Assembly: GCF_000384655.1 (NCBI RefSeq)
Contig: NZ_ARQI01000124.1
Location: forward strand, 1-64,000
Direction: 5' to 3'
Length of the DNA: 64,000 bases
DNA from: Brachyspira innocens ATCC 29796
Lineage (GTDB): Bacteria; Spirochaetota; Brachyspiria; Brachyspirales; Brachyspiraceae
Of the stretch, positions 19,834 through 33,370 are shown one piece after another. The notes under the pieces are model-generated. The model was given only the letters and a program-made list of their open reading frames with translations. It had not been told where the DNA came from and ran no database searches. The first letter of the stretch is position 1. Each line of letters starts with the position of its first letter. The position numbers and the translations under genes were made by a program.

Positions 19834-21156
19834 TTATATTTTTACTTCAAATACAGTTTGTTCTTTTATATCTGTACATAAAGCATCAAGAGCAACACTA
19901 ACTCTGTGATAACGTAAAGCCCATTGCTCTTCTTTAGTAGTGGCAGGATCTCCCAAAGGATATGGTATAGATATAGCAGGAACCATTCTGTTAGCACCAA
20001 CACTTTTTGCAACAGGTATCAAGTTGGCAATCTGAACTATAGTTATTCCAGCTTTTTCTATTTCTTTTGTCATCGTTGCACCGCAACGAGTACAAGTTCC
20101 TCAAGTAGAAACAAGTAAAGCAACTTTTATTCCAGCTTCCACTAATTCATCAGCAATTTCTCTTCCCATACGTGCAGCTTCGGCCTGAGTAGTACCAGTA
20201 CCAACTGTAGAATAGAAATATTTATATACTCCGCCTATTTTTCCTTCTTTCTGATAAGCTCTTAAAACATCAAGCGGAACAATTCTGTCTGGGTCTTCAT
20301 TAGCAGCAGCAGGATCGAAACCAGCATGTATAGTCATATACTCGCCTTCTACCAAATCATCTAAATTAGATATATCATATTTACCCCATTTAGTAGCAGA
20401 TGCAGACTGTATTCTGTCTGGGTTTCCTACTGGAACTATACCACCGCTTGTTACTATAGCTACTTCCAATTTCTTTAATTCTTCTTTTGTTACAGCTTTT
20501 GCTATAGGTACTAATTCTTTTTTAGGTATAATAAGTTCAGAAGTAAATGCCTCTCCTTTAATCTTTTTAAGAAGCATATCCATAACTCTTTCAGTAGCTG
20601 GAACATTATCTTTTGTCCAAATTTGTTTTCTAACACCTCTTCCGAAATAGCCCTCTTCTGAAGCAGGTAAAGTCTCTTCACCTTTTAAGAGTTTAATTGC
20701 AAACTTACTCATAGCTAAAGTATCTTTAGGCATAGCAGCAGCAGAAGCACCGCCTTTAAATATGTACATATCTTTTTTGAACATATCAACGCCAGGGTTT
20801 TCATCATTCATAGAAGTGATTACAGGAACTTTGAATTGTTCTTTTACGGCCTTACACACTTTACCGCATGCAACACCATAACGTCCTGCTCTGAAAGCTG
20901 GACCTGCAAAGAATATATCAAACTCTTTATCTTTTAAAAATCCAATTATAGTATTCAAAGCTTCATCTGGATTACTTCCAATGAAATTATCACCGCATAT
21001 AATAGTATGAGTAATTTCTACCTCTCCTTTAAGATGCTTAGAAAATGCCATAGCAGGTCCTACTAATTCCGCTCTAATTTCTGGCTTATAATCAGCCATA
21101 TCTTCTCCGCCTACTCCGGCAAAAAATTGATTTATATATAAAATACCTTTTTTCAT
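19834..21156 (-). CDS. grdH: Betaine-reductase-type component B selenoprotein (UGA recoded as selenocysteine)
   Basis: 440 residues when the in-frame TGA at 20101-20103 is read as selenocysteine 352, in the context LLVST-U-GTCTRCGATM typical of GrdB/GrdF/GrdH proteins. An SECIS-type hairpin lies 12 nt after the UGA. Component B binds the substrate and transfers its carboxymethyl group to the selenoprotein GrdA; the selenocysteine is the attacking group. It follows grdI by 11 nt and precedes a BCCT transporter, which points to betaine (GrdH) rather than glycine; a sarcosine enzyme (GrdF) is the alternative. It is a clear paralogue of grdB at 28810-30108 but longer in the N-terminal half. A naive gene caller would split it at the UGA. 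Confidence 0.9.
20074..20088 (-). promoter_or_regulatory. SECIS hairpin of grdH
   Basis: On the minus strand CGTTGC-GGT-GCAACG forms a perfect 6-bp stem with a GGT loop, starting 12 nt after the UGA. The GGU apical loop at this distance matches bacterial SelB-binding elements. The same bases recur after the grdB UGA. Confidence 0.8.
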
Positions 21157-21167
21157 TTATAAGCTCC

Positions 21168-22489
21168 TTAAAACTCTGCCATAGTTTTTGTAGACCAGCC
21201 TACAACCATATCACCGCAGAACATAGCATTATTTTCCATAATAATAGAACCATCTTCTCTAACTGAAGGACCTAACACAGCATCGTTGCTCCATCCGCCT
21301 GATAATCCGTCTCTTGCCAATGATTCCAATTCTCCTATAACTGTAGGCATAGGAGGAAGTTCTATCATCTCAGATACATTTCCGCATGATACTATAGCAT
21401 CTGCTTTTTCATCTAATGTTACTAATGGCTGAGAAGCTCCGTCTCTTCCAGTACATTCATTAGTCAAACCAACAGTTTTTACTTTAGCATCTTCTAAAGC
21501 AACTATACATGCAATAAAGTCTGCATCTGGGTTACCGTATCCTTCTTCAGCTACTATAGCAGCATCAGCACCTATATTATTAGCTATTTGTGCTACGAAT
21601 AATGCAGCTCTTTCTTTTTGGTCTAAAGCAACATTAAGATTGGAAAAAATAACTCCTAAAAAGTTAATAGTTTTTCCATGTTCTGAAAATAATTTCTTAA
21701 TCATTGGGAAATTTTGAAAATCATAAGTTGACCATTTAGAAGAACAAGGCATAAATGAACCTGATATAACAGCTCCGCCTAATATTTCATTAGGATGCAT
21801 TAAAGTTGGAAGCATTCTGTTTGTATCCCAGCCATAAACTAAATCATTATATCCGTCATTTTCCATCTGAGATTGTGCCTGAAGTACTAAAGCTACTTTA
21901 GGTAATTTAGCATCTCTTGAAGCATCTGTTATACTTGGAAGAGAATAAGTTTCTACTTCTTCAGGTTTTTGATCTTTTACACAATTTCCTAAATATTCAG
22001 CAAGTCTCATACCAGCCCAGCGAAGTGCTTTGTTTTTCTTTTGCTGTTCTCTTTTCTCAAACTCTTCATCGGTATCAGCAACCAAACATACATTTAAAAG
22101 ACCTGAATAATATGTATATTTAGCACCTTCTCCTCCCATATCTATTAATCCGTCTTGGAATCCGCCCCAATGTTTTCCTACAGCCAATACACTGCAGTTT
22201 TTAAGAGCATGCATAACTCCGTCACCTGCTCTGTACATAGGACCTAAAACCCCGGAAAAATAGTTTTACCATCTAAACGGCATCTTGGCTCTATAGCTTC
22301 CTTTACAGGAACTATTCTAACCATATCACCGGGCTTAACAATAATAATATCAGCCTCGGTAATATGACTATCTTCTTTAACAATACTTAAAGCTTCTTCT
22401 TTATTGATTGTTAAAGTAGAGTTTTCAAATTTGGTCTTATCACCAAATTTGATGTCTTTTACATAAAAGTTTCCAATATGTAATTCCAT
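21168..22489 (-). pseudogene. grdI: Betaine-reductase-type component B proprotein (GrdE/GrdG/GrdI family), one-base frameshift
   Basis: Start ATG at 22489 with GGAGAG upstream. The first 80 codons (MELHIGNFYVKDIKFGDK to RLDGKTIFPG) align with GrdE and then meet TAG. In the -1 frame the protein goes on as VLGPMYRAGDGVMHALKNCSV to a stop at 21168. Restoring one G in the GGGG run (22250-22253) gives about 440 residues. By family knowledge the proprotein is cleaved to alpha and beta chains with a carbonyl group. The Asn-Cys pair present in GrdE at 241-242 is Ser-Phe here, with a Cys four residues further on (Cys249). First gene of the grdI-grdH-BCCT unit. It may be intact in the cell if the frameshift is a sequencing error, or be rescued by -1 slippage on the G run. 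Confidence 0.82.
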
Positions 22490-25887: not shown

Positions 25888-27063
25888 CTAAGATATAAAT
25901 CCGCCTTTTCTCAAAATATTCTCTGCATTTTCTTTGTTCTTATCACTCACTAATATGATAGGTCCAGTACAGCCCATACCAGACTCAGCATATATACCAT
26001 TTTCCATAACCAAATCAACAGCTGCATCCAAATCCATAACTTCAACACCAGGGATTTGTGCAGTTACAACTTCTTTGGCTACAGAAGGTTTTGCTTTTTC
26101 TCCGCCTGAAGAAGCATTTGCTTTAGGTTTTAAACTATCTAAAATAGCATCAAAACCATATTTTTTTACTTCTTCTTCTTCTTTGTTCATAACATCTATT
26201 AAATTACCGCTTATACATTGATAAGCATATTCAATAGCACCAGCAATAACATTAGAACCAGAAGCTCTTGAAATAATGAATATAGGTGTTTTAAATCCGA
26301 ATCCTATACCAGGACCATAACCATATCCTATAGCCTCATAGCTTCCGCCGCTGTTGAATGAGGAGAACATTTTTATAAGTATGTTTCCAGTAAGAGAGTC
26401 GCATACAACAACATCAACAGCACCAGTTATAAGGTCATTTCCTCTCAAAACGGCACCGCCATCAGCACGGTTAGAAGCTCCGAATTTAATATTATAACCG
26501 TTAGAAGCTAATTCTTTTAAAGCTCTCTCTACAGTACGTGCAGAATCAATATTTAATATACCAACTGTTGGTTCTTTAATACCGCAGACTTTTGCTGTTA
26601 TTATTCCGTAAATAGCATTTTTAAACATAGCCTGATCTCTGACAGTAGCAGAAGTACCTGTAGTAGTAGCTATATATGTTTCTTTTCCATTAGCCTGAGA
26701 TATAACTCTTCCTACAGTAGATACTCCTATAGGGAAAGGATAATGCATAGTAACACAAGCATCCAATTCTCCTTTAGAGAGCATTTCTTCCATTATTTTA
26801 TGAGCTTTCTCATCGCAGTCAGTTTCTATTGTTTGTAATCCTGTAGAGTTTTTCTCACCAATTAAAACAACTTCAACATTTTTGTTTCTGCTCATAGCTA
26901 TTACACCGCCAAGAGATACTGCCTCTGCACCATGCTCAGAACCTCTATTTGTAATACCAACACGTACTTTTTTTCCGAATTGACCTGTTTCTAAAGCATT
27001 AGCAAGTGAAAGGAAAGTTTCACCTATCATAGATTTTATAGCTGAATTAGAAGCATCACTCAT
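25888..27063 (-). CDS. grdD: Glycine reductase complex component C, subunit alpha
   Basis: 391 residues of the GrdD family, related to the PlsX/phosphotransacetylase-like fold. It carries VRVGITNRGSEHGAEAVSLGG, LDACVTMHYPFPIGVSTVG with Cys103 as the likely acetyl-carrying cysteine, and GYGYGPGIGFGFKTPIFIISRASGSNV. With GrdC it converts the selenoprotein-bound carboxymethyl group to acetyl phosphate. It lies 12 nt after grdC and is the last gene of the operon. Cytoplasmic. Confidence 0.94.
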   Translation of the reverse strand: MSDASNSAIKSMIGETFLSLANALETGQFGKKVRVGITNRGSEHGAEAVSLGGVIAMSRNKNVEVVLIGEKNSTGLQTIETDCDEKAHKIMEEMLSKGELDACVTMHYPFPIGVSTVGRVISQANGKETYIATTTGTSATVRDQAMFKNAIYGIITAKVCGIKEPTVGILNIDSARTVERALKELASNGYNIKFGASNRADGGAVLRGNDLITGAVDVVVCDSLTGNILIKMFSSFNSGGSYEAIGYGYGPGIGFGFKTPIFIISRASGSNVIAGAIEYAYQCISGNLIDVMNKEEEEVKKYGFDAILDSLKPKANASSGGEKAKPSVAKEVVTAQIPGVEVMDLDAAVDLVMENGIYAESGMGCTGPIILVSDKNKENAENILRKGGFIS

Positions 27064-27074
27064 CTAATACCTCC

Positions 27075-28676
27075 TTACTCGCCTAACATGCTTTTAGCGA
27101 AATCTCTCATAGCATTAGCAATAAGTTTATTAACTTCTTCTTTTGAAACACCTTCGCTTGTACCTTTATCACCGCTGTTTTTTTCGATAATAACAGATAT
27201 ACCGTCAAAAAGATTAGTCATTCTTCCTAAGAATAATGAACCTTTACCTATAAGCATTACACGATTAATTTTACCAGACATAATGTCCTCAATAGCATAA
27301 CCCAAATAAGGTACTCCAGATGGTATATGACCTTGAGTTGGAGCCCAACCAGACATACCATGTTTATCAACAAATTCAGCTATTTGACTTCTTTCTAGGT
27401 CTCCTTTTTTTACACCGATGGCAGCTATCATTTTATAATTAGCTTCTGGAACATCACCAGCACCAGCAGGTTTAGTTACATCAGGGTTTTGCATTTCTAC
27501 AGTATATTTATCTATATCTGTAACTTTTAAGTTTGCTTTTTCCAAAGGATTTACTATCAAAGATGTCATAACTGCCTGAGGAGCAGAACCAGTAGCAACG
27601 GTGTGTCTTCCAAGTACATCTGTTCTTATAACAGGGTGTACTCCGTCATTCTCACTGATAAGTACAGCAAAAGCACCTAATATATCTTCGATAATAGGAA
27701 GATTTTTAGTTACATGGCTTTTACCATTCATACCCAATTTAGCAGTAGCACCTCCTGCAACTATTACTACATTTTTATAAGAACCAGCTTTTACTAAAGA
27801 AGCAGCAGTTACTAAAGCATGTGAAGGAGCGGCACAGAATCCTCTAATATCAAAACCTGTAGTGTTAGGTATTCCAGCAACTTCAGCTATACTTTTAGCG
27901 AAGTTACCGCCACCTCTTTGGTTCATATCACCGCAAGCCTCTTCAGAACATTCAATAACCAAATCGATTGTTTTAGGATCAATATTTTTCTTTCTAATAA
28001 GTTCTTTTAAAGCCATAATACCAGAAGCTTTAACTGCTAAGTTTTCAAAGATAACATGTGCACTCAAGTTAATATCAACATCATGTGCTCTTTTTATACA
28101 GCCTACTAATTTTTCATTGAAATATAAACCTTCAGCATGTTCTTCTTTTATTAATCTTTCTATTTCATCGATTTTAGTTTCGCATTTTACCTGAGCTAAA
28201 TCTTTTTTAATTTCATCTTCTGTTTTATATTTAGATTCTGAAGCAATATAAGCATCTCTCATTTTTTTCTCAAATTCAGCTTCTAAATATACTAATTCAA
28301 ATACATCAGATATTTTCATCATAAAGATAAATTCATCTTCAGCGAAAATTTCACCGAATTTACCGTTTCTTTCACCTTTACAAGGCACACCTATCCAGCT
28401 TCCTCCTGCTTTTTTTACTTCTTCAGAAACTTGAGATGCAAGTTTTTTTAATTCTTCAGGGTGAAGATTACCAATATAAGTTTGGTTAGGGGCATAATTT
28501 ACAACATCTTCAAAAGGTCTAAGATGTTCTTTAAGTTTTTTTAAATAGTCCGAATCAGGATTAACTTCTCTTTCTACTGTTTGCGTAGTACCGTTATTGA
28601 CTACCATATCAGGTGCATGTACTATAGCATAAGCAGCAGCTTTTAATACAGCATAACTCATCTTTTTAATCTCCAA
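27075..28676 (-). CDS. grdC: Glycine reductase complex component C, subunit beta
   Basis: 533 residues; GGAG before the ATG. The central part is thiolase/FabH-like: VIECSEEACGDMNQRGGGNFAKSIAEVAGIPNT and GFDIRGFCAAPSHALVTAA, then GMSGWAPTQGHIPSGVPYLGYA near the C-terminus. It receives the carboxymethyl-selenoether from GrdA and, with GrdD, releases acetyl phosphate. It is separated from grdB by a stable hairpin, which may set its level apart from the upstream genes. Confidence 0.95.
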   Translation of the reverse strand: MEIKKMSYAVLKAAAYAIVHAPDMVVNNGTTQTVEREVNPDSDYLKKLKEHLRPFEDVVNYAPNQTYIGNLHPEELKKLASQVSEEVKKAGGSWIGVPCKGERNGKFGEIFAEDEFIFMMKISDVFELVYLEAEFEKKMRDAYIASESKYKTEDEIKKDLAQVKCETKIDEIERLIKEEHAEGLYFNEKLVGCIKRAHDVDINLSAHVIFENLAVKASGIMALKELIRKKNIDPKTIDLVIECSEEACGDMNQRGGGNFAKSIAEVAGIPNTTGFDIRGFCAAPSHALVTAASLVKAGSYKNVVIVAGGATAKLGMNGKSHVTKNLPIIEDILGAFAVLISENDGVHPVIRTDVLGRHTVATGSAPQAVMTSLIVNPLEKANLKVTDIDKYTVEMQNPDVTKPAGAGDVPEANYKMIAAIGVKKGDLERSQIAEFVDKHGMSGWAPTQGHIPSGVPYLGYAIEDIMSGKINRVMLIGKGSLFLGRMTNLFDGISVIIEKNSGDKGTSEGVSKEEVNKLIANAMRDFAKSMLGE

Positions 28677-28809: not shown

Positions 28810-30108
28810 TTAATCTTCAAAAACTGTTTGTGTATCTACAGGAGTTGTCAAAGCTTTTAATGCTCTTTCAACTAATGTACGTCTTAATTTTTTCTCATCT
28901 TCTTTAGACAAATTAGGATTGCCTAGAGGGTGAGGTATAGCAACTGCTGGAACTATTCTGTTAGCACCAACTGTTAAAGATATAGGAACAATAGTACAAA
29001 TATGGACTACAGGTATTCCAGTAGCTTCTATTGCTTTAACCATCGTTGCACCGCAACGAGTACAAGTTCCTCAGGTTGATGTTAATATAACAGCCTGAAC
29101 TCCGTCTTTAACTAAAGTTTGAGCAAATTCAGTAGCAAATGCTTTAGAACTTTTTACTGAAGTACCATTACCAGTAGTAGTATAGTAATAAGGATAAAGC
29201 TCTCCTATTTTACCTTCTTTCTGTAAATCTTTTAATACATCAACAGGTAATACTCTGTTAGGGTCTTGGTTAGCATAAGTAGGGTCATAACCGCCATGTG
29301 CTGTTTCTCCCATATCATCTATAGAGTATCTTCCATATTTAGAAGCTGAAGAAGATTCTATATGGTCTGGGTTTCCTGATGGTACTATACCGCCGCTTGT
29401 AACCAATGCTATTTTAGCTTTAGTGATATCTTTAATAGCTTCACCTGGTGTTACTCTATCAAAGTCTGGCATTGGATATTCTGTAGTAAATGCTTCACCT
29501 TTAATTTTTTGTATAAGCATATCAACAGCTCTTTCAGCACCGCTTTTTTCTCTGAATAATACTTTACGTATTCCTCTTGGTATATAGCCTTCAGCATCTG
29601 GAGTTCCCAATTCTTCTTTTTTAAGAAGTTTAGAAGCTAATTTAGCTATAACTGGCAAAGCAGCTCTCATACCTGCAGCAGAATCTTTAGTAGAAACGAT
29701 ATAAACATCTTTCTTAAACATATCTGCACCAGGGTTTTCAATATACATACCAGTAACAGCTGGAATTTTTAATTCATCTTGTATCATTTTAGCAACAGTA
29801 CCGCAAGCTGTACCGTAACGTCCTGCATTAAAAGCAGGTCCTGCTATAACTAAATCTGGGCTGAAGCTTTTTATCATTTCTAAAACTTCTGCTTTAGCTT
29901 TATCTAGGTTTTCATTGAAATAAGAGTCACCGCATATAACAGTGCCTACTATTTGTGCATCAATACCTAGCTTCTTAAACTCGCCTTGTAATCCTGCACC
30001 AGGACCTACAACTCCGTCTCTTTTCTCTGGAGCTATATCAGCCTTTTCCTCTCCGCCGATATTAGCGAAGAACTGATTAATATAATGAACTATTTTATAT
30101 TCTGGCAT
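28810..30108 (-). CDS. grdB: Glycine reductase component B selenoprotein (UGA recoded as selenocysteine)
   Basis: 432 residues, AGGAGG before the ATG. The TGA at 29071-29073 is selenocysteine 346 in AVILTST-U-GTCTRCGATM, the GrdB active-site sequence. The SECIS hairpin follows 12 nt later. It forms component B with processed GrdE, binds glycine as a Schiff base and moves the carboxymethyl group to GrdA. It follows grdA by about 150 nt that contain a terminator-like hairpin. It has the residues shared with grdH around NQDPNRVLPVDVLK and SSSASKYGRYSI. Confidence 0.96.
29044..29058 (-). promoter_or_regulatory. SECIS hairpin of grdB
   Basis: CGTTGC-GGT-GCAACG on the minus strand, starting 12 nt after the UGA, in the same position and sequence as in grdH. 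Confidence 0.82.
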
Positions 30109-30259: not shown

Positions 30260-30736
30260 TTATAAATATTTGCAGTTTTCATCACGCATTTTTTTAATTT
30301 CTGCGATGATTTCATCTACGTTTAATGTCATTTCTGCCATACCAATCTGTTCATCATAAACAGCAGGATCTACTGCTTCTTTGAATTCTGGTTCTACGGC
30401 ATGGTAAGCTGCTAAGCCTAATTCTACTCCAGCTAAAGCACCAGCATAAGTAGGGTCTCCTATCATTACTGTTTCAGCTGCTAAACCTGTAGCTTCTGCT
30501 TCTGCAGCACCGAATAATACTACTATATTTTCTCCTCCAAATTTTTCTGTAAATTCTTTAATTCTCTTTTGATTCTCTAAATCCATCGCTCCTGCGGCTG
30601 TTCAAACAAAACACTCCGTAGCAGCAAACAAAACTTCTGCGTCTTGTACTGTTTCAACGCATGCTTTGATAGCTTCTCCAGGAATGCCGTCTCTATCGCC
30701 AATGATAATTACTTTTTTACCATTTAAAATACTCAT
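30260..30736 (-). CDS. grdA: Glycine/sarcosine/betaine reductase selenoprotein A (UGA recoded as selenocysteine)
   Basis: 158 residues, AGGAGG 6 nt before the ATG. The TGA at 30602-30604 is selenocysteine 45 in [16 protein letters not shown], the invariant GrdA motif, with Cys42 as its redox partner (CxxU). It accepts the carboxymethyl group on selenium from component B and delivers it to component C; the oxidised form is reduced by thioredoxin. Length is the family norm. A gene caller that stops at UGA would report only the last 108 residues from an internal Met. It sits directly after grdE and must also serve the betaine unit, which has no grdA of its own in this window. Confidence 0.97.
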
Positions 30737-30789: not shown

Positions 30790-32076
30790 TTATAGTCCTG
30801 TAGCACTAAATTTATTAAAACCTAATTCGTTTGTAGCACCAGTTATAACCTGCAATTCTGCTTCAATAGAACCATCTGGTTTTAATGATCCGTCAAATCC
30901 GCCTGCTATTTTATCTGTATAATCTAACATACCTATTACTTTATCCATTTTTGGTAAATTAATAACTACATTAGCATTACCTGCTGTTACTACTGCATTT
31001 GCTGATACATCAGAATCTGCCAAAGACTGTGAAGCTCCGTCTCTTCCAGCATACTCATCTGTTATGATACAAGTTTTTATGCCGAATGCTTCTGCTTTTT
31101 TACAGTTCATTATTAAATCTGCATCTGGATTACCGAATCCTTCTTCAGAGATAATTACCGCATCTAATCCGAAGTATTTAGCTAATTTTGATGACCAATC
31201 TGATGAACGCATTTTATCTGCTAAAAATACATTTTCATTTGTTATTATAACACCCATAAAGTTAATATCTTTACCATGTTTTTCATATAAAGCTTTAATT
31301 ACTGGGTTATTCAAGTGGTGATAAGTTGTATTTTTATCACAAGCTGATACACAGTTACCGCTTACTATAGCACCGTCCATTACTTCTGTTGGATAAATAA
31401 ATGTAGGAACTATTTTTTTAGCGTCTACACCATAAACATAAGTATCATGTAATAAACCTTGAGTTTGAAGCATATATATATAGCCAACTTTTGGTAAATT
31501 AGGATACATTGCAGCTTGTTCAAATATAGGTTTAGTTTCATAGCTGTAAGTATTATCTGGTTTTAAATCTTTAGCTAATTTTCCCAAATAAGATGCTACT
31601 CTTAAACCTGCTCCTCTTACTGCTGCTTCATAATCATGTTTTTCTATAGGCTCTATTGGCTCTATAAGCAAACATAAATTATTAAGTTTAGAGAATGGAG
31701 TATAATCAGCTCCAGGTCCTGTCATATCTATAATACCTTCTTGGAAACCTACTATTTTACCGCAAGTAACAACAGCTGCACCTTTTAAAACATGAGTTTT
31801 ACCTTCTCCAACTGTATCTACTTTAGATATCATACCTGGAAATATACCGCCTCTGCCGTCAACTTTTACTCTAGGTTCAATTACATCTTTTACTGGAGTA
31901 ATACGTACTGATTCTCCAGGACGAGCTACATCAATTTTTACGCTTTTTAACTTATCGTCCTCAAGCACAATTTTTGTAACTTCTTCCTCATTTACATAGA
32001 GTACTCCGTTCTCGACTTTTGAAATTTTGTCAAGCTTTATATCTTTAATATAAATCTCGCCTATCTCTAACTTCAT
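30790..32076 (-). CDS. grdE: Glycine reductase component B proprotein
   Basis: 428 residues, AAAGGAG before the ATG. The N-terminal half (MKLEIGEIYIKDIKLDK to IVGFQEGIIDMTGPGADYTP) and C-terminal half (VIISEEGFGNPDADLIM, YAGRDGASQSL) are typical of GrdE. Cleavage in this family yields a carbonyl-bearing chain; Asn241-Cys242 in SGNCVSACDK is the probable site. With GrdB it makes the glycine-binding component B. It is the first structural gene after a regulated leader that contains a UGA codon and a terminator. Confidence 0.95.
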   Translation of the reverse strand: MKLEIGEIYIKDIKLDKISKVENGVLYVNEEEVTKIVLEDDKLKSVKIDVARPGESVRITPVKDVIEPRVKVDGRGGIFPGMISKVDTVGEGKTHVLKGAAVVTCGKIVGFQEGIIDMTGPGADYTPFSKLNNLCLLIEPIEPIEKHDYEAAVRGAGLRVASYLGKLAKDLKPDNTYSYETKPIFEQAAMYPNLPKVGYIYMLQTQGLLHDTYVYGVDAKKIVPTFIYPTEVMDGAIVSGNCVSACDKNTTYHHLNNPVIKALYEKHGKDINFMGVIITNENVFLADKMRSSDWSSKLAKYFGLDAVIISEEGFGNPDADLIMNCKKAEAFGIKTCIITDEYAGRDGASQSLADSDVSANAVVTAGNANVVINLPKMDKVIGMLDYTDKIAGGFDGSLKPDGSIEAELQVITGATNELGFNKFSATGL

Positions 32077-32119
32077 ATAGTCTCCTTTATATTTTTTATT
32101 TTTATATAATTTATATAAA

Positions 32120-32320
32120 TTAAATTATATCAACAAAAAAGAGCAGAAACATATTTTTAAAATATATTCCGCTCTTAAAATTACACAATAACTGATATAC
32201 ATGAATTTTAATCCCTGAGAAATTTAATGTTCGCAAATTATGTAATTCTGAAATAGAATTATAAAATACATTACTCATTGCACCGCAAGATAAATTATTT
32301 ACTCAGCTATTAAATTTCAT
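32120..32320 (-). CDS. Leader peptide with in-frame UGA, upstream of grdE
   Basis: A frame of 66 codons that starts ATG AAA TTT AAT AGC TGA (UGA at 32303-32305) and then stays open to TAA at 32120-32122. It has AAAAAGGA 9 nt before the ATG; an alternative ATG lies two codons earlier. After the UGA, 14 nt precede TTGC-GGT-GCAA, the spacing found in grdB and grdH, so residues Cys-Gly-Ala 12-14 match GrdB at the same place. The rest of the product matches nothing I recognise. About 20 of its last codons lie in the terminator hairpin. It may be a regulatory leader peptide, or a decayed grdB fragment. Confidence 0.5.
32134..32177 (-). terminator. Intrinsic terminator inside the grdE leader
   Basis: AAGAGC with following bases pairs with GCTCTT (outer 6 bp perfect, then G-U and A/T pairs inward) and ends in a run of U. 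It lies after the promoter and about 58 nt before grdE, so it must be passed for grdE expression from the local promoter and from grdX-trxB. Confidence 0.75.
32278..32288 (-). promoter_or_regulatory. SECIS-like hairpin in the grdE leader
   Basis: TTGC-GGT-GCAA on the minus strand, 14 nt after the leader UGA. Core stem and GGT loop equal those of the grdB and grdH elements; the outer C-G pairs are missing, so the stem is 4 bp. Confidence 0.55.
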
Positions 32321-32360
32321 TAACATATATCCTTTTTAATATTTTTATTTACACTATATA

Positions 32361-32388
32361 AATATAACAATTTTTTTATTATTGTCAA
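32361..32388 (-). promoter_or_regulatory. Promoter upstream of the grdE leader
   Basis: TTGACA (32388-32383), 16-nt spacer, TATATT (32366-32361). The predicted start near 32354 leaves about 30 nt before the leader ATG. It begins 23 nt past the trxB stop. Confidence 0.7.
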
Positions 32389-32410
32389 CATTTTTTAATT
32401 ATTTTTTTAT

Positions 32411-33370
32411 TTATTCAGTAAATTTTTCTTCTATATACTTGTTTGCTGAAATACCCGCTATTGCTCCGTCTGCTGCTGCAGTAATAACCTGTTTAAGCAT
32501 TTTTGGTCTTAAATCTCCGCAAGCAAATACACCCTCAACATTTGTTTTCATTTCTTCATCTGTAAGGATATATCCGTCCTGCATAGCAACTTTACCTTCA
32601 AACAATTTTGTCAAAGGAACATAGCCAACAAATATAAATACTCCAAATGTTCCGTCTTCTTCATCTGCCTTATATTCATATTTCTCGCCTGTTTCATTGT
32701 TCAAGAATATAGCAGATTCAACTATTCCGTCACCTTTAAGTTCCAAAAGTTCTGTTCTGAATTTTATTTCAATTTTTGGATTTGCTTTAGCTTTTTCTTC
32801 GATAGAATTAGCACAGCGTACATAATCTTTTCTTACTATAAGTGTTACTTTTCTAGCAAATTTAGATAAATACATAGCTTCTTCTACAGCTGTATCGCCT
32901 CCTCCAACGCAGAAAACTTCCATACCTTCAAAGAAATTAGCATCACAAGTAGCACAGTAAGAAACTCCTTTACCTGTGTATTCCAATTCACCTTTACAGC
33001 CTAATTTTCTAGGCTGAGCACCTGTAGCTATTATAACTACTTTTGATTGATAAACAGTTCCATCAGATAGAGTTACTTCTTTAATCTTTCCATCAAGTTT
33101 AACATCTGCAACTTCTTTATGTTCTATCTCAGCACCAAATTTTTTAGCCTGTTCTATCATTTTATTAATAAGATGTTTAGGGTGTCTTCCCTCTTCTGAC
33201 TCTTCATAAAAACCAGGGTAATTAGCTATTTCATCAGTTATGCTAATCTGACCTCCGAAACTTCCTTTTTCAAAAAGAACTGTTTTTAATCTGGCTCTAG
33301 CAGAATATATACCAGCGGCCAAACCAGAAGGACCGCCGCCTATTATAATACAATCATATAAATTACTCAT
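32411..33370 (-). CDS. trxB: Thioredoxin reductase
   Basis: 319 residues, AAGGAG before the ATG. FAD-binding GGGPSG at 11-16, redox pair Cys139 and Cys142 in SYCATCDANF, NADPH-binding GGGDTA at 156-161 and the C-terminal FAD motif GVFACGDLRPKMLKQV. It passes electrons from NADPH to thioredoxin, which by family knowledge re-reduces GrdA. It lies between grdX and grdE as in other glycine reductase loci. The trxA gene that often accompanies it is not in this window. Confidence 0.96.
   Translation of the reverse strand: MSNLYDCIIIGGGPSGLAAGIYSARARLKTVLFEKGSFGGQISITDEIANYPGFYEESEEGRHPKHLINKMIEQAKKFGAEIEHKEVADVKLDGKIKEVTLSDGTVYQSKVVIIATGAQPRKLGCKGELEYTGKGVSYCATCDANFFEGMEVFCVGGGDTAVEEAMYLSKFARKVTLIVRKDYVRCANSIEEKAKANPKIEIKFRTELLELKGDGIVESAIFLNNETGEKYEYKADEEDGTFGVFIFVGYVPLTKLFEGKVAMQDGYILTDEEMKTNVEGVFACGDLRPKMLKQVITAAADGAIAGISANKYIEEKFTE

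Follow-up and report, generated by a model that had tools for sequence, protein, structure and literature searches.

The glycine reductase operon of Brachyspira innocens is preceded by a short open reading frame whose sixth codon is UGA and which runs into an intrinsic terminator. The best explanation for this arrangement, and one that we consider very likely, is that it constitutes the leader of a selenocysteine (Sec)-sensing, ribosome-mediated transcription attenuator. This proposal is well supported by the comparison of related sequences, and there are no bench data on expression, ribosome position, or selenium response. The window analyzed is a stretch of 64,000 nucleotides (nt) of contig NZ_ARQI01000124.1. 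Its minus strand carries the leader between trxB and grdE, the first gene of an operon with the order grdE-grdA-grdB-grdC-grdD. Both targets that require Sec, grdA and grdB, are located downstream from the leader, whereas trxB lies directly upstream of it and outside attenuator control. The gene order grdX-trxB-grdE-grdA-grdB agrees with that in the available part of a published description of the grd cluster (PMC2897892), which does not mention the leader.

Table 1. Features of the leader and the adjoining glycine reductase operon, with positions in the window
Feature	Position	Strand	Basis
trxB-like thioredoxin reductase gene	32411..33370	-	ORF list; NCBIfam TRX_reduct, 338 bits
Putative promoter TTGACA-16-TATATT	32361..32388	-	11/12 consensus matches, TG before -10
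Putative leader ribosome-binding site AAGGA	32330..32334	-	Sequence
Leader frame MKFNS-U-VNNLSCGAM...VDII*	32120..32320	-	UGA at codon 6, 60 codons after; open in 12/12 relatives
In-frame UGA, proposed Sec/stop decision codon	32303..32305	-	Invariant in 12/12 leaders
SECIS core TTGC-GGT-GCAA, flanking U-A and C-G pairs around a bulged U	32278..32288	-	Stem invariant in 12/12, one compensated pair
Putative intrinsic terminator: hairpin 32176..32139 and U-tract down to 32135	32135..32176	-	-15.7 kcal/mol; compensatory changes in 12 species
grdE ribosome-binding site AAGGAG	32082..32087	-	Sequence
grdE (component B alpha-type subunit), first gene under the proposed attenuator	30790..32076	-	ORF list, profile match
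grdA selenoprotein A, in-frame UGA, start approximate	30260..30720	-	Translation with TGA=U; NCBIfam reduct_selen_A
grdB selenoprotein B, own UGA 29073..29071 and SECIS_4	28810..30108	-	ORF list; Rfam; profile match
grdC and grdD (component C beta, alpha), operon remainder	25888..28676	-	NCBIfam reduct_C_beta, reduct_C_alpha

Several of these elements had been claimed from the letters of this DNA alone. The promoter named in that sequence-only reading is present and ranks best among the promoter-like sites in the 4 kb scanned. The ribosome-binding site and the UGA as sixth codon were also found as described, where codons are counted from the ATG at 32320, 9 nt after AAGGA; a second candidate ATG at 32326 is in frame and lies 3 nt after AAGGA. 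The claimed open frame of 60 sense codons through the terminator is likewise there, ending at a TAA (32122..32120) that is followed 43 nt further on by the grdE ATG at 32076. The distance between terminator and stop had to be corrected: the stop comes 16 nt after the fully paired stem, rather than 12 nt after the hairpin.

A grdE-type gene was found in 14 of the 26 genomes of the genus, and 12 of these carry the leader ahead of grdE. Every leader start is preceded by a purine-rich site. In eight leaders there is enough space for a separate promoter, whose layout is clear in six; the TTG...-16-TATAT(T/A) pattern is kept in L001–L003, L008, L010, and L011. In four closely related leaders with a GUU loop (L005–L007 and L009), the leader begins ∼25 nt past trxB, which leaves no room for a promoter. 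These leaders must therefore be read from upstream transcription, and the attenuator would act within a longer transcript.

In bacteria, UGA is read as Sec only if SelB–GTP–Sec-tRNA binds a SECIS hairpin located just downstream; otherwise, release factor 2 terminates translation. The sequence TTGCGGTGCAA (32288..32278, minus strand) begins exactly 14 nt past the leader UGA. As had been claimed, this core and this distance are the same in grdB (UGA 29073) and grdH (UGA 20103), both of which match Rfam SECIS_4. The pattern UGA-N14-TTGCGNNGCAA is kept in all 12 leaders, with the UGA, the spacer length, and TTGC...GCAA invariant. This arrangement meets the expectation for a bacterial SECIS site, which is an in-frame UGA with a hairpin at SelB distance, in 12 of 12 leaders and with a spacer identical to that of grdB. 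SelB is encoded in 26/26 genomes of the genus and tRNA-Sec scores above the cut-off in 25/26; the lone exception is an incomplete assembly. Judged by these genes, Sec decoding is genus-wide.

The hairpin itself is a weak point. The leader SECIS hairpin has a predicted stability of only about -2 to -4 kcal/mol versus -8 to -11.5 kcal/mol for those of grdB and grdH, its z score against shuffles is 0.13, and other local folds are more stable in some species. No match to the leader was obtained with the Rfam SECIS models at E values up to 10, and the SECIS of grdA also lacks an Rfam match at gathering level. The apical loop is GGU in seven leaders, GUU in four, and GGC in one. Among ∼70 grdB-type sites, GGU, GGC, and GGA loops are present and GUU is absent; in grdB, however, the loop GGN doubles as a glycine codon, so coding also fixes GGN. 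The glutathione peroxidase locus of Brachyspira, tried as an additional SECIS comparison, yielded no in-frame UGA motif.

The pattern TGA-N14-TTGCGNNGCAA has 32 matches in the 26 genomes, all of them grdB-type or leader when classed by the matched letters, and the reversed control has none. Genomes of the genus that lack grdE have zero matches. In 30 grd-bearing non-spirochaete genomes, the GGT-loop form of the pattern gives 41 matches, all grdB-type by the same judgment. Across 393 Spirochaetota genomes, matches to UGA-N14-TTGCGNNGCAA within Brachyspiraceae are grdB-type or leader only. Other spirochaete families have scattered matches, many unrelated to grdB, and the reversed control gives hits of a similar kind. 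One variant, TGATCGATTTGATAAGATTGCGGTGCAA, recurs outside grdB in four Treponema-type genomes (G045, G137, G167, and G173), which is probably a coding coincidence. The scan for the grdB-type UGA pattern also returned two unusual cores, ATTGAGTGTTT in L118 and GTTGTGGTGCA in L166; these could be SECIS variants or mis-hits of the pattern.

The reading frame that follows the SECIS core is free of stop codons as far as the terminator loop. Over this interval, the leader frame has 0 stops in 455 codons in the 12 genomes, whereas the other two frames have 35/443 and 73/443. For this one leader sequence on its own, a frame open up to the terminator loop arises in dinucleotide shuffles with P ∼0.04. 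This is weak evidence alone, and it is the comparison among genomes that decides. Near relatives differ by up to 47 substitutions (L001 to L004), and random placement of these leaves the frame open in 4% of trials. Changes in leader length between species stay in frame. Loss of the UGA, the 14-nt spacing, or the open frame among relatives had been set beforehand as grounds for refutation, and all three are kept in 12/12 leader-bearing relatives. One requirement for an attenuator, a short translatable leader with a ribosome-binding site, a start codon, and an open frame, is met throughout.

These data bear on the possibility that the leader is a relic, that is, a decayed grdB-like fragment that happens to lie beside an ordinary constitutive terminator. 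Its single origin, the in-frame TGC GGT GCA that it has in common with grdB, and the modest P value for one genome are all compatible with this idea. Decay, however, would not preserve the UGA, the spacing, and the openness of the frame in 12 species while the remainder diverges to a dN/dS of ∼1. Moreover, the shuffle P values taken per clade and multiplied over four deep clades give a figure of the order of 1e-7 (a figure that ignores shared ancestry), and the alignment contains compensated pairs. We consider a relic the least credible of the alternatives, with only a very slight chance of being correct. A remnant of a selenothioredoxin gene was considered separately and was rejected because the UGA position and the sequence do not fit.

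The predicted intrinsic terminator lies inside the open leader frame and has a z score of -6.0 against shuffles. A consensus terminator scanner did not detect this hairpin, probably because of its bulge. In six species, the leader stop codon falls within the apical loop of the terminator; in the other six, it is downstream from the hairpin, and it never precedes the hairpin. This distribution is as expected if a ribosome has to get as far as the 5′ arm of the terminator. The UGA is 87, 120, 129, 141, or 144 nt from the hairpin, and all of these distances are multiples of three as scored; in L004, the AAGAG motif itself begins one nucleotide later. The presence of an intrinsic terminator between the leader and the first structural gene satisfies a second requirement for an attenuator.

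A decision at the UGA could instead be conveyed by Rho-dependent polarity, mRNA decay, or translational coupling to grdE. In one genome (G021), the leader stop of L012 overlaps the grdE start codon (ATGA), and the stops of L005, L006, and L009 are 26–27 nt upstream of grdE, which would allow coupling. A strong, conserved terminator with a U-tract argues against all three routes. In addition, the stop of the six species that have it in the terminator loop is 75–86 nt from grdE, which is too far for coupling. It therefore seems improbable that the intrinsic terminator is bypassed in this manner, and slightly more so than for the two explanations considered below.

If the frame is maintained, then the peptide might be the reason. 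The leader could be a functional gene for a small selenoprotein that ends at the terminator by chance, since it has a realistic promoter, a ribosome-binding site, a UGA/SECIS, and ∼55–70 codons, and since a short NFSGIK/NLSGIK-like motif is common to 8 of the 12 leaders. The pattern of substitution does not fit this explanation. Values of dN/dS are ∼0.2–1.7 in all pairs but one (a value of 6 that derives from half a synonymous change), and the two unused frames do not have consistently higher values, so the expectation of purifying selection is not met. The peptide has no match to a Pfam or NCBIfam family, and its C terminus varies freely and often ends within the terminator loop. The invariant residues past the UGA coincide with RNA elements: C14 and A16 are specified by SECIS bases and K51 by the first bases of the terminator. 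We regard a small selenoprotein as a poor explanation with a small chance of being correct. A dN/dS near 1 indicates that it is translation that is conserved and not the peptide. The alignments show conservation of the RNA elements and of an uninterrupted frame, but not of the peptide.

In the alignment check proposed in the sequence-only reading, the covariation anticipated for the SECIS hairpin and the terminator was observed, and the peptide was not conserved. When RNAalifold was applied without constraints to a 297-column alignment, only the SECIS hairpin and the terminator were predicted, with five compensated pairs. No conserved antiterminator was found in this alignment of 12 leaders, and the classical trp-type criterion is therefore not met. 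A block with the sequence AATTT(C/A)TCAGG(G/T)ATT was observed ∼85–105 nt past the UGA (window ∼32200–32222) in 8 of the 12 leaders (L001–L007 and L009). This block and the region surrounding the UGA are complementary, and they pair in the single-sequence fold. Such pairing, as modeled, would mask the UGA and the start region; RNAalifold gives no genus-wide support for it.

The same data speak to a model in which SelB–Sec-tRNA binding to the SECIS controls termination or translation by itself, without read-through, as proposed for the SECIS-like element in front of E. coli selAB. The SECIS core is the most conserved element of the leader and SelB is present in every genome, as this model would require. 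However, binding alone has no need of a UGA in frame behind a start codon and ribosome-binding site, nor of a frame that is open into the terminator, and yet the latter is seen in 12/12 species. Furthermore, no conserved alternative structure joins the SECIS and the terminator. We judge that this model is about as unlikely to be correct as a small selenoprotein gene.

The leader-bearing genomes form one clade; neither the basal species of the genus nor the sister genus has the leader, and grdE loci elsewhere lack it too. In a midpoint-rooted grdE tree with outgroups, the 12 leader species group together with support of 81/82. The genome G010, which has trxB-grdE with no leader and a gap of only ∼27 nt, falls outside this group, and the leaderless sister genus is further out. 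One gain and no loss explains this distribution, and thus the 12 leaders are not 12 independent trials. A search ahead of grdE elsewhere (80 loci from the GTDB collection plus Spirochaetota, 139 scanned) revealed no hairpin at the right distance outside Brachyspira, and the remaining candidates look like chance matches, mostly within other genes. The leader was not found in Treponema, Clostridia, or the other taxa sampled, and it is absent from a second grdE lineage (66% identity) and from paralogs with 43% identity.

Some additional peculiarities of grdE genes were observed. In G007 (L181 3816–6032; C1 ∼1233815–1236031), codons for grdE amino acids 1–379 are fused in frame to a grdC-type gene to form a 739-codon frame. 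The operon of this genome has lost grdA and grdB, perhaps recently, and its upstream leader is intact. Upstream of a grdE paralog in G024 (L051 ∼1110–1240), there is a long array of tandem GCATC units. In the window, a grdE-like paralog with 43% identity (21279–22489, minus strand) is split into overlapping frames, 21279–22262 and 22247–22489, an arrangement that suggests a frameshift or an error of assembly. It is upstream of grdH, which has its own UGA and SECIS_4 at 20103.

The conserved UGA, spacing, and frame, the covariation, and the genus-wide presence of SelB and tRNA-Sec together support the earlier inference that the leader is a Sec-sensing attenuator, in the absence of selenium-response data. 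Its elements, their conservation, and their geometry can be read from the DNA, whereas Sec insertion, coupling of ribosome and polymerase, and a response to selenium are inferred. A regulatory UGA/SECIS codon is conserved before a selenoprotein operon, as an attenuator of this kind would require, and its actual decoding has not been demonstrated. Several weak points count against the attenuator: the thin SECIS hairpin, the lack of an Rfam match, the GUU and GGC loops, the single gain, and the G007 leader without grdA and grdB.

If the hypothesis is correct, then transcription would start at the leader promoter, or come from trxB in the four species without one, and a ribosome trailing RNA polymerase would translate the short leader frame. 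When SelB–GTP–Sec-tRNA is available, SelB would dock on the grdB-type SECIS and the UGA at codon 6 would be read as Sec. The ribosome could then run ∼48–61 codons into or past the terminator hairpin and cover its 5′ arm, the terminator would be disrupted, and transcription would proceed into the grd genes (ON). When selenium is short, release factor would end translation at the UGA, 87–144 nt ahead of the hairpin, and the terminator would fold (OFF). No antiterminator is needed because termination is the default state. The length of RNA that separates the UGA from the hairpin may determine how much time there is for Sec insertion before polymerase arrives at the terminator. Sec read-through in bacteria is slow and often inefficient, and so the response could be partial.

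The grd genes are probably switched on only if the cell can make Sec. The OFF state would avoid the production of grdE, grdC, and grdD, which are useless without the selenoproteins GrdA and GrdB. Since both of these proteins need Sec, there is a benefit in making the remaining components only when Sec-tRNA exists, a feed-forward arrangement. It is likely that the attenuator senses Sec-tRNA by UGA recoding in a leader with a grdB-type SECIS, that recoding is the decision and the peptide is irrelevant, and that the device arose once in Brachyspira and was kept in every sampled descendant. UGA recoding would be an ideal all-or-none readout of the supply of Sec-tRNA. If true, the proposal explains how a bacterium short of selenium avoids assembling a selenoenzyme complex that is costly in energy. 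It would also extend the regulatory roles of SECIS elements beyond selenoenzyme synthesis, provide a compact, naturally occurring selenium reporter, and constitute a genetic switch for the 21st amino acid.

The sequence-only reading knew of no described UGA/SECIS leader-peptide attenuator, and no earlier description of such a leader was found in the open-license PMC literature, a source that does not cover most papers in subscription journals. UGA-containing leaders of other selenoprotein operons may have been overlooked so far because gene callers stop at UGA and weak SECIS hairpins escape the Rfam models. Among the closest known elements is the grdB SECIS (Rfam SECIS_4, RF01990), with which the leader has in common the UGA, the 14-nt spacer, and UUGC-GGU-GCAA. 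The leader element differs in its shorter and weaker stem, in having no conserved product, and in falling below Rfam detection.

The SECIS-like element of E. coli selAB resembles the Brachyspira leader in that SelB/SECIS recognition in a 5′ leader ties expression to the supply of Sec-tRNA. The E. coli element reportedly lacks a UGA within a leader frame, and SelB binding to it is repressive. In contrast, Brachyspira conserves the UGA, the frame, and the terminator, and abundant Sec should activate. Autoregulation by E. coli SelB is cited as reference 26 of PMC8124441. A second likeness is to selenium-dependent nonsense-mediated decay of eukaryotic selenoprotein mRNAs, where the reading of UGA as Sec or stop sets the fate of an mRNA according to selenium. 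That decision takes place within the coding gene itself, whereas Brachyspira would use a dedicated non-enzyme leader and transcription termination rather than mRNA decay.

Leader-peptide attenuators are known for many standard amino acids. Those of the trpL, hisL, pheL, and ilv/leu type share with the Brachyspira leader a short translated frame, one or more codons for the sensed amino acid, an intrinsic terminator before the operon, and a ribosome that reads charged tRNA. Because no antiterminator was found, we do not class the Brachyspira leader as a trp-type attenuator. It would sense Sec-tRNA by means of a recoded stop codon and a SECIS, and its logic would be inverted, such that the presence of the amino acid turns the operon on. 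Finally, in the proposed mechanism the ribosome disrupts the terminator by arriving there and not by stalling.
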